The notes below the pieces were generated by a model. It made no database searches, was not told the origin of the DNA, and saw nothing but the letters and a program-made list of their open reading frames with translations. From positions 1-36,301 of IMG/VR virus record IMGVR_UViG_3300021438_000044: a stretch of DNA of 36,301 nt, one strand, 5' to 3'. Below are positions 4,504-7,642 of the stretch, piece by piece. The first letter of the stretch is position 1. Each line of letters starts with the position of its first letter. Both the position numbers and the translations under genes were made by a program. This DNA comes from a virus.

Positions 4504-5865
4504 ATGTCAGACAAAATTATCGAAAAGCTAGACGCTATTGAGCAAGCACAAGTTGAAGCAGTTGAATCTGTTAAAGCTGATGTTGATGCTAAATTAGCTG
4601 AAAGCCAAAAAGCAGTAGAAGAAAAAGTTGTATCATTTGAAGAAAAAGTAGCGGCTCTTGAAGCTAAAGTTGCTTCTATCGGTGCAACACCTTTAATCAA
4701 AACTTACAAAACGATTTCTCAAGAAGTTAATCGTTCTGTTAAAGAGCAATTAAAAGCTTTCTACGAAAAAGGTAGCAAAGTTGAAAAAGAACTTAAAATG
4801 TTTGAAGATGTTGGTCAATATGACGCTTACATCAAAGAAGCTTCAGCATTAACAGGTTCAGGTGCAGGCGTTGGTGGTAGAACTGCTTATGATCCTGTAT
4901 TCGTTCCATTAAGACTTGCTAACCCAATGCGCGGTGTATCTCGTTCTGTTGCTACTGATGGTGCTACTTACCAATTCCGTGCTAAAACAGGTAACGCAGG
5001 TGCGGCATGGGGCTATGCAATTCAAAACAATGGTTCAGCTACAACTGAAGATACAAACATTTGGCAATTAACATTGCAAGACTTAAATGTTCAATTCCCA
5101 ATCAGAACTGCGGCTTTAGATGACATCGATGGTTTAGAATCAAATGTTGTTTCAGATATGCTTCTTGAGTTCTCACAACAAGAAGGTTTATCAATGATTC
5201 AAAATAACGACCAAGGTGCTACATCATTACCTTATGGTGGTTCTAATGGTCTTCGTGGTCTTGATCAATACGCAGGTGCTAATGCAACCTTTACAGGCGG
5301 CACAACTTCTGTTTCAGCATTTGGGACAAGTGGCACAGGCTCAACATCAGGTCTTCATTCATTAGCAACTTATGACCAATTAACATCTAACACAAACTCT
5401 GTAACTACAAACAATGTAACTTACAAAGATATTGTTAATTTAATCTACGCTTTACCACAAGAATATTGGACAGAATCAACAAAATTTGTTATCAATCCAA
5501 TCATGCTTGGTGCAATTCGTGGTTTAACAGATACACAAGGTCGCCCAATCTATGTTGATGGTCTTGCTAGACCTGATGGCATCGTTGGCACATTACTCGG
5601 CTTCGATGTAGTGGTAAATAAATATGTTGATCTTCCAAACCAAGCTTCAACAGGTGCGGCAGGAACAACATCTAAATATCCAATCTTCTTTGCTGATTGG
5701 TCTAAATACCATGCAATCGTTGATCGTTTAAATATGGTAATGCGCCGCTACGACCAAACACTACCCGGCTATATCACATTCTATGGTGAGAAGCGTTTAG
5801 CAACTTCTGTTGTTAATCCATTTGCAGGTGTTCGTTACAGATCAACTGCAACTGCTAATAGCTAG
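4504..5865 (+). CDS. Major capsid protein, HK97 fold, with delta domain
   Basis: This 453-residue protein is the main shell subunit. Residues 5-62 form a strongly predicted coiled coil (Glu/Ala/Lys/Val heptads), the scaffolding delta domain removed by the protease. The mature region includes KEASALTGSG at 111-120 and a C-terminal YGEKRLATSVVNPFAGV segment typical of HK97-fold capsids. The ribosome site AAAGGATAA is at the end of the protease gene. A strong intrinsic terminator follows. A shorter paralogue lies downstream at 5941-6975. Confidence 0.95.
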   Translation: MSDKIIEKLDAIEQAQVEAVESVKADVDAKLAESQKAVEEKVVSFEEKVAALEAKVASIGATPLIKTYKTISQEVNRSVKEQLKAFYEKGSKVEKELKMFEDVGQYDAYIKEASALTGSGAGVGGRTAYDPVFVPLRLANPMRGVSRSVATDGATYQFRAKTGNAGAAWGYAIQNNGSATTEDTNIWQLTLQDLNVQFPIRTAALDDIDGLESNVVSDMLLEFSQQEGLSMIQNNDQGATSLPYGGSNGLRGLDQYAGANATFTGGTTSVSAFGTSGTGSTSGLHSLATYDQLTSNTNSVTTNNVTYKDIVNLIYALPQEYWTESTKFVINPIMLGAIRGLTDTQGRPIYVDGLARPDGIVGTLLGFDVVVNKYVDLPNQASTGAAGTTSKYPIFFADWSKYHAIVDRLNMVMRRYDQTLPGYITFYGEKRLATSVVNPFAGVRYRSTATANS

Positions 5866-5888
5866 TAGTTAGTAACAAAATGTAGGAC

Positions 5889-5921
5889 AAAAGGGCGAGT
5901 TAATCGCTTGCCCTTTTTTTT
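5889..5921 (+). terminator. Intrinsic terminator after the major capsid gene
   Basis: An 11-bp stem with one G-T pair (5889-5899 with 5907-5917) and a 7-base loop is followed by a run of T to 5921. This is a classic Rho-independent terminator. Its place just behind the capsid gene suggests it stops most transcripts there. That would give high capsid and lower downstream expression, with partial read-through into the tail genes. Confidence 0.88.
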
Positions 5922-5940
5922 AATCAATTAGGAATAGACC

Positions 5941-6975
5941 ATGAACATAACTGAAAAAATTTTAGATGGCATCAAACAGACGCTTGAAACAGGAAGCAAG
6001 GTTAATATTGGCCTTAAAGAAGCTTCTGCTCTTACAGGCTCGGGTGATGGTGTAGGTGGTCGCACCTACTTTGATGATGCATTTGCGGCATTAAGATATG
6101 CAAACCCTTTTAGACAAGGGTCAAGACAAATTAAAGCAAGCGGTTCATCTGTGCAATTTGTAGCTAAAACAGGTAATGCGGCTAACTCAACTAACCCTTG
6201 GCTTTATGCAGTAACACCAAATTCAGGTTCGCCAAACATTGCAACATCTATTTGGCAACTACCAACAAGAGTAATTACTGCTCAATTGCCAATCAGAACA
6301 GCGGCAATGAGTGATATTAACTATTTAAATGAAGCTTTAGTAAAAGATTTATTTTTAGAATTTTCGTCTTTAGAAGCACAATCTATGGCTACTAATAATG
6401 ACCAATCAGGCTCAACAACCACAGCTACAGGTGGCGTTAATGGCTTGCGTGGCTTATCTTATTATGCAACTAGCACTTCTTCTGCATCTTATGGTTCAAG
6501 TGGTTCTGCTATTACTAATGGTATTCATACAATTTTAAAGAAAACATTTACAGCGGCTTCAGTAACTTACGATAATATTGTTGATACAGTTAATCTTTTA
6601 CCTGCTCAATATTGGTCATTACCAACAACAGCTTGGCATATGCATCCTGATTTAATTGTTCAATTAAGAAAATTAAAAGGTTCTACAGGTGGACAACCAA
6701 TGTTTATTGAAGCAGGCGATGAAGATGGTGGTGCAGTAGCTTATGTATTTGGCTTTCCTGTAATCCCTAATCCATATCTAGAAACACCTGCGGCAGGTTC
6801 TTTATCAGCAGTTTTAGCAAATTGGGATCAATTTATGACTATTGCTGATGTTGAAGACATGAATGTTCAAGCTATGGAACAAACAGCACCGGGCTTTGTA
6901 ACCCTTTATGCTGAAAAACGACTTGTATCAACAATCAGAAATCCATTTGCAGGCGTTTATTTAATAGGGGCATAA
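5941..6975 (+). CDS. Second capsid protein: delta-less paralogue of the major capsid protein
   Basis: This 344-residue protein is plainly homologous to the major capsid protein upstream. KEASALTGSG (26-35 here, 111-120 there) is followed by a matching GVGGRT block, then AKTGNA, PIRTAA, NGLRGL, and a closing YAEKRL..RNPFAGVY. It lacks the roughly 85-residue coiled-coil scaffold region and keeps only a short leader. It has its own AGGAATAG ribosome site and lies behind the terminator, so lower expression is expected. It could be a minor shell subunit (for example pentons or a specific vertex) or a decoration-type protein. Homology is read directly; role is inferred. Confidence 0.88.
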   Translation: MNITEKILDGIKQTLETGSKVNIGLKEASALTGSGDGVGGRTYFDDAFAALRYANPFRQGSRQIKASGSSVQFVAKTGNAANSTNPWLYAVTPNSGSPNIATSIWQLPTRVITAQLPIRTAAMSDINYLNEALVKDLFLEFSSLEAQSMATNNDQSGSTTTATGGVNGLRGLSYYATSTSSASYGSSGSAITNGIHTILKKTFTAASVTYDNIVDTVNLLPAQYWSLPTTAWHMHPDLIVQLRKLKGSTGGQPMFIEAGDEDGGAVAYVFGFPVIPNPYLETPAAGSLSAVLANWDQFMTIADVEDMNVQAMEQTAPGFVTLYAEKRLVSTIRNPFAGVYLIGA

Positions 6976-6976
6976 T

Positions 6977-7642
6977 ATGGCAGATACGCTTGGACAAGTA
7001 GCTTATGGCTCTACGAACAATCCATTCAACTATGATAAGGTTGAGCAGATTGATCGTGATTTGTCCACAAGTTGGCTAACATTAGATGAAATCACACAAC
7101 AATTAAACTTGTTTGGTGATGAATCTCAAGATGACTATTTAACAGGTCTTGAATTGGCAGTTCGTATGCATATTGAGGATTATCTCGGTATGCCTATATT
7201 CAATACATCTTACAGGGTTTATTATGGATTAAGTTCCCTTTACGCAAGCCCTGTATGTCTTGATTTGCCTGAAGTTTCATATACTGATTCATTTGGATCA
7301 GGAAGTGTAACGATTAATTCTGTTAAATACTATAATGGCAATACTCCAAGCGAACTGATTACATTGGCTAGTTCTAATTACTATTACGACAAGTCAGGTA
7401 ATAAAGTAATTCTTCCAAATGGAACGCCTAGCAATATTAGCCAAAACAGAACTTCACCTATTGTTGTGGAATATACAGTAGCACCTAATTTTTTATCACA
7501 ATATCCTGTGATTAAACAAGCGGCTTTATTGTTATTGACACATCTTTATAACAATAGATCAGAAACTAATTTTGGTGCATTGCAAAATATTCCTTATGGT
7601 GTAGATGCTTTATTAAGACCATATAAACCACTTGTAATGTAG
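6977..7642 (+). CDS. Head-tail connector, HK97 gp6-like
   Basis: This 221-residue protein is the likely adaptor ring under the portal. The segment LTLDEITQQLNL...DDYLTGLELAVRMHIEDYLG (about 36-72) is the hallmark helical core of gp6-like connectors. The rest is longer and more beta-rich than in HK97 gp6. It starts 2 bases after the second capsid gene with an AGGGGC ribosome site and is followed by the head-closure candidate. Confidence 0.8.
   Translation: MADTLGQVAYGSTNNPFNYDKVEQIDRDLSTSWLTLDEITQQLNLFGDESQDDYLTGLELAVRMHIEDYLGMPIFNTSYRVYYGLSSLYASPVCLDLPEVSYTDSFGSGSVTINSVKYYNGNTPSELITLASSNYYYDKSGNKVILPNGTPSNISQNRTSPIVVEYTVAPNFLSQYPVIKQAALLLLTHLYNNRSETNFGALQNIPYGVDALLRPYKPLVM

Follow-up and report, generated by a model that had tools for sequence, protein, structure and literature searches.

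In most HK97-type phages the head is the textbook one-protein shell, the same protein being used in hexons and pentons. In bacteriophage T4, gp24, which is probably a duplicate of gp23, forms eleven pentons and loses 10 residues, versus 65 for gp23 (PMC9958956). In SaPIbov5 procapsids, the capsid protein CP is found exclusively in hexons and its homologue Ccm exclusively in pentons (PMC8569155).

The window, i.e. the whole stretch of DNA analysed here, is a 36,301-base virus record and a relative of Methylophilaceae phage P19250A. Its head module, assigned with Pfam and PHROG profiles, comprises the small and large terminase subunits, portal, S78 protease, major capsid protein (MCP), a second capsid protein (MCP2) and connector, and displays the terminase-portal-protease-capsid-connector order of HK97-fold phage capsid modules (Table 1). 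The MCP2 ortholog of P19250A (P19250A_0006, APC43891.1), 68.5% identical over its full length, likewise lies between MCP and connector; it is annotated as a hypothetical protein, and the record gives no capsid role.

Like T4 gp24, MCP2 is a second HK97-fold protein related to the MCP, and its pro-region is much the shorter of the two (26 residues compared with 111 in MCP, the cleavage being putative). T4 differs in its prolate head and separate scaffold, and a penton position of MCP2 would follow by analogy. No T4 gp24 chain is present among the listed matches of MCP2 in a PDB sequence search and a fold search, and the two may still be related. Ccm is similar in that it is a second HK97-fold capsid homologue paired with a delta-domain-bearing HK97-like CP, but it has its own 87-residue delta domain, is satellite-encoded and redirects head shape. 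Such satellite-encoded redirection is not what we found: in the loci that we examined, MCP2 is part of the head operon of the phage itself. Two-component Family 2B encapsulins likewise build one shell from two HK97-fold proteins (PMC12407261), but are cellular compartments with mixed, irregular tiling and not portal-bearing, genome-packed phage heads. The best solved-structure relative of both MCP and MCP2 is the RcGTA major capsid protein Rcc01687, which differs in that only one capsid protein of RcGTA occurs among the search matches, with approximately 15-19% identity to MCP2.

Table 1. Position of the capsid genes and neighbouring features in the window.
Feature	Position	Strand	Basis
Prohead protease (Peptidase_S78), 268 aa	3694..4500	+	PF04586 1.6e-9; head maturation protease PHROGs
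Major capsid protein (MCP), 453 aa, including an N-terminal delta/scaffold region	4504..5865	+	PF05065 3.3e-32; TIGR01554 1.4e-31; AF2 pTM 0.62; Foldseek top match RcGTA capsid
N-terminal part of MCP, residues 1-111, missing or reduced in MCP2 (coiled-coil helix 2-58; further helices 71-88 and 103-115)	4504..4836	+	AF2 secondary structure; shared block from E112
Hairpin with U-run between the capsid genes	5889..5921	+	Scan; folding z -5.07; hairpin in 84/84 distinct gaps
MCP2 ribosome-binding site AGGA	5930..5933	+	Sequence; SD match of 4 bases in most loci
Second capsid protein (MCP2), 344 aa, lacking the N-terminal coiled coil	5941..6975	+	PF05065 9.7e-17; TIGR01554 1.5e-19; 37% identity to MCP; AF2 model similar to RcGTA capsid
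MCP2 short conserved N-terminal segment, residues 1-26 (helix 3-17; G10, K12 and G18 invariant), putative short propeptide	5941..6018	+	Alignment; AF2
MCP2 predicted spine helix, residues 126-151	6316..6393	+	AF2 secondary structure
Head-tail connector (Ad1/gp6-like), immediately 3' of MCP2	6977..7642	+	PF05135 9e-5; phrog_40 2.8e-14

Paralogy and fold of the two capsid proteins

MCP and MCP2 are tandem HK97-fold capsid paralogues. Both open reading frames are in place, with the shared HK97-fold blocks that the sequence-only reading had described, and the alignment of the two proteins spans 375 columns with 37% identity (E 7e-73). Both exceed the cut-offs of PF05065 (24.2 bits; 112.5 bits for MCP and 61.7 bits for MCP2) and of TIGR01554, major_cap_HK97 (27.5 bits; 110 and 70 bits). 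The same reading had named a structure unlike the HK97 fold as evidence against itself, and the predicted MCP2 model does match this fold. AF2 monomer models, built from 28-sequence alignments from which P19250A was left out, have modest confidence (pLDDT 58.8 and pTM 0.64 for MCP2, pLDDT 63.2 and pTM 0.62 for MCP); both match HK97-fold shells, with the RcGTA capsid as best match. For MCP2, and within the modest confidence of its model, this match has a Z of 19.5 and an rmsd of 3.4 over 230 aligned residues, and that to HK97 itself (1ohg) a Z of 14.3 and an rmsd of 4.5 over 212 residues.

The two proteins differ most visibly at their N-termini. The first residue of the shared block is E112 in MCP and E27 in MCP2, a difference of exactly 85 residues. 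The MCP model opens with a long helix (residues 2-58), followed by two more helices and the HK97-like core, and the MCP2 model has one short helix (3-17), followed by the same kind of core. With 26 residues before the mature domain, compared with 111 in MCP, MCP2 lacks a built-in delta scaffold, for which approximately 100 residues are expected. The earlier claim that MCP2 has no delta domain of roughly 85 residues thus holds for the coiled coil, but not for the entire pro-region, since a short conserved N-terminal helix is retained. Because the MCP2 segment ILDGIKQTLETGSKV resembles the MCP segment VKEQLKAFYEKGSKV in the alignment, the sequences suggest that the coiled coil was lost and a distal pro-segment kept, the short helix of MCP2 probably being the counterpart of a distal MCP delta helix. 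The similarity of the two proteins begins abruptly at E112/E27, as would be expected if the protease cut at this putative site and left both with the same mature N-terminus, but the preceding residue is not conserved.

QT.PG and 52 further sites are identical between the paralogues and at least 90% conserved in both, and residues conserved in MCP2 only are present as well. The QTxPG turn lies between the last two long strands and is presumably placed at the three-fold contact. Among the core regions, MCP and MCP2 are least alike in the second part of the A-domain, and the E-loop region of MCP2 aligns to that of MCP almost without gaps. A common QTxPG together with a strongly diverged later A-domain would suit separate capsomers that meet at three-fold contacts, the domain boundaries used here being taken from AF2 secondary structure and not from mapped interfaces.

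These features also bear on the reading that MCP2 co-assembles with MCP inside hexamers and pentamers, so that the shell would be mixed and its composition would vary. The two HK97-fold proteins of the Streptomyces lydicus Family 2B encapsulins do tile irregularly together (PMC12407261), the MCP2 model aligns to both of them with a Z of approximately 15, and the nearly gap-free E-loop region points the same way. We nevertheless consider mixing unlikely: phage heads need a fixed size and resistance to DNA pressure, the T4 and Ccm precedents are position-specific, and the core has diverged most in that part of the A-domain which should lie near the capsomer axis, a pattern that disfavours mixing within a capsomer.

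In P19250A, both paralogues (MCP at 4600-5988, MCP2 at 6066-7124) carry the rare motif AGLQGSG instead of SALTGSG, which could reflect gene conversion or a joint constraint on the N-arm.

Spread and evolution of the gene pair

A scan anchored on MCP2 yielded 80 viral loci, all with the order protease-MCP-MCP2-connector up to the contig limits; scans of viral and genome contigs anchored on MCP were added to avoid bias. The search of related phages for the pair, which the sequence-only reading had proposed as a check, gave MCP2 beside MCP in 221 of 222 MCP loci with room downstream. Some of the counted loci share one contig, and the complete pairs represent 139 clusters at 95% nucleotide identity. 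The pair is also present in the isolate P19250A, and seven phage contigs of 36-39 kb carry exactly two PF05065 genes each, which are adjacent. As a control, 38 PF05065-bearing genomes from one betaproteobacterial order (the PF05065-positive ones of a 200-genome search) contained a single adjacent pair, which is that of this lineage. The pair is therefore fixed in the whole phage lineage, a large and mostly aquatic family. In the literature searched, which included only a minority of subscription journals, no description was found of a tandem HK97 capsid pair in this group.

The only locus among the 222 with MCP but without MCP2 is a contig-edge fragment (L090, 1-210) in a Polymorphobacter MAG, in which a 69-aa C-terminal piece of MCP is followed by bacterial-looking genes; it is perhaps a prophage remnant or an assembly join. 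The head module was also found on a contig placed in the bin of an archaeon, Candidatus Nitrosotalea (JAHEYD010000010.1); this contig is probably mis-binned phage DNA. Phage Venkman has been called similar to P19250A in synteny (PMC8163748), but was rejected as a second isolate with the pair, its GenBank record (MT375522.1) showing a scaffolding protein, one MCP and a different head module.

In the phylogenetic tree, MCP2 forms a single clade (support 99/98) and MCP another (86/69), with largely mirrored subgroups. This pattern points to one old tandem duplication of an HK97-type MCP that predates the sampled lineage, after which the genes travelled together. The stem of the MCP2 clade is longer (1.12 versus 0.38 for MCP, with an uncertain root and distant outgroups), as expected for the copy that changed its role. 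Outside the group, the closest relatives with a name are Burkholderia phage Bcep176 and Rhizobium phage RHph_X2_25; they share the module and its gene order, with one annotated capsid gene at the equivalent position and without MCP2.

Both copies are under strong purifying selection, with a median dN/dS of 0.225 for MCP and 0.233 for MCP2, values that are approximate given the high dS in many pairs. Structural-gene duplications do occur, and MCP2 might be seen as a relic or as a redundant copy that has no role of its own; this is most improbable, and we rejected it on the selection data (dN/dS of approximately 0.23), next to which stand the conserved MCP2-only residues and the maintenance of the gene over the 139 sequence clusters.

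In several loci MCP2 has gained additional domains. In three of them (L110, 5363-5665; L113, 5379-5681; L114, 2816-3118), a domain of approximately 100 aa (phrog_2859, function unassigned) is placed in-frame before the usual MCP2 start; an internal ribosome-like site is present in these fusions, and an internal start may yield the short form too. In Synechococcus phage S-CBS3 and in Roseobacter phage CRP-821, the same domain opens a capsid precursor that is long. In another locus (L154, 3116-3322), a 69-aa segment inside the E-loop region matches phrog_21413 and a tail-fibre family; used alone as tblastn query against phages it gave no match. The insert site is a possible natural display site. 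The N-terminal fusions and the E-loop insert are easiest to explain with MCP2 in the shell.

Intergenic hairpin and expression signals

The hairpin between the capsid genes of the window has a folding energy of -16.6 kcal/mol, with a z of -5.1 versus dinucleotide shuffles for a 41-nt stretch and of -2.7 for an 80-nt stretch. An intergenic hairpin is present in all 84 distinct MCP/MCP2 gaps, the base sequences differing considerably (mean z -3.5 versus mononucleotide shuffles), but five or more T in the ten bases that follow occur in only about 55% of the versions. Of the terminator proposed earlier for this site, the strong and conserved hairpin is thus confirmed and the U-run is seen in part of the loci, termination being its presumed function. 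MCP2 does have its own ribosome site, as had been stated, in the form of a Shine-Dalgarno AGGA; across loci the typical match is 4 bases for MCP2 and 5 for MCP.

The share of C-ending codons, a usual correlate of high expression, has a median of 0.40 for mature MCP, 0.28 for MCP2, 0.27 for the protease and 0.28 for the connector. It is higher in MCP than in MCP2 in 25 of 28 loci, which are related, so that a p-value would not be independent. The codon share of MCP2 being near that of protease and connector, the sequences suggest that MCP is highly expressed and that MCP2 is not and resembles the low-copy head genes.

This resemblance, and the position of the gene next to the head-tail connector, on the side of the hairpin where expression is presumed to be low, would also agree with MCP2 marking one special site, e.g. 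the capsomer ring around the portal. A codon bias that exceeds those of connector and protease only slightly would fit a few copies per virion as well. Such a role is improbable in our view, as the bias of MCP2 is slightly above that of the connector in 18 of 26 loci and no HK97-fold paralogue with such a role was found in the literature searched.

A candidate minor shell subunit

The sequence-only reading took MCP2 for a stoichiometrically minor shell subunit, with pentons, a special vertex or a size regulator as options. The general proposal gains support from the universal pairing, the purifying selection, the predicted fold, the position behind the hairpin, and a codon bias and ribosome site weaker than those of MCP; among the options, pentons are best supported, through the analogy with T4 gp24 and SaPIbov5 Ccm. 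Sequence and models together make it very probable that MCP2 is a member of the shell, and by analogy we lean, with moderate confidence, towards MCP2 forming the pentons and MCP the hexons. MCP could in principle form pentamers by itself, as the capsid protein of most HK97-type phages does, which counts against this assignment.

In the arrangement that we infer, covering incorporation into the virion, pentameric position, cleavage, subunit ratio and T number, MCP2 would be a dedicated minor shell subunit derived from the old tandem duplication and would build the 11 non-portal pentons, with MCP building the hexons. For a genome of approximately 37 kb and an assumed T=7, this would correspond to about 55 copies of MCP2 and 360 of MCP. 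The scaffold would be the N-terminal delta region of MCP, presumably cleaved off by the S78 protease, and MCP2 would come in with only a short helical pro-segment, so that it would probably be unable to drive shell assembly alone. It would fill the five-fold positions left by the MCP hexamers via the retained three-fold loop contacts (QTxPG), and the hairpin and weaker translation signals would hold its output nearer to the level of the connector genes.

MCP2 might instead regulate assembly or size, entering early and setting capsid geometry, and be retained in the virion only to a small extent. Ccm does alter head shape through pentons (PMC8569155), and size control and a penton role can coincide; however, MCP2 is phage-encoded and fixed in the lineage, so that no alternative size is evident, and it retains the full mature capsid domain, which makes a purely regulatory protein doubtful. 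Returning to MCP2 as penton subunit, it is tentatively conceivable that a head module with no separate scaffold gene divides the shell between a hexon protein that bears the scaffold and a penton protein that lacks it, that the lack of the delta coiled coil defines the vertex and in this way the capsid geometry, and that the MCP2 vertex serves as an evolvable display point, as in the E-loop insert and the N-terminal fusions.

If MCP2 does form the pentons, a widespread phage group would represent an independent case of penton specialisation, beside T4 and the satellite-encoded Ccm. Since the missing scaffold is the most visible difference of MCP2, the role of the delta domain at five-fold versus six-fold positions, and the way in which capsid size is fixed, would become directly testable. 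The analysis also provides a likely function for a protein that is annotated as hypothetical in the cultured phage P19250A.
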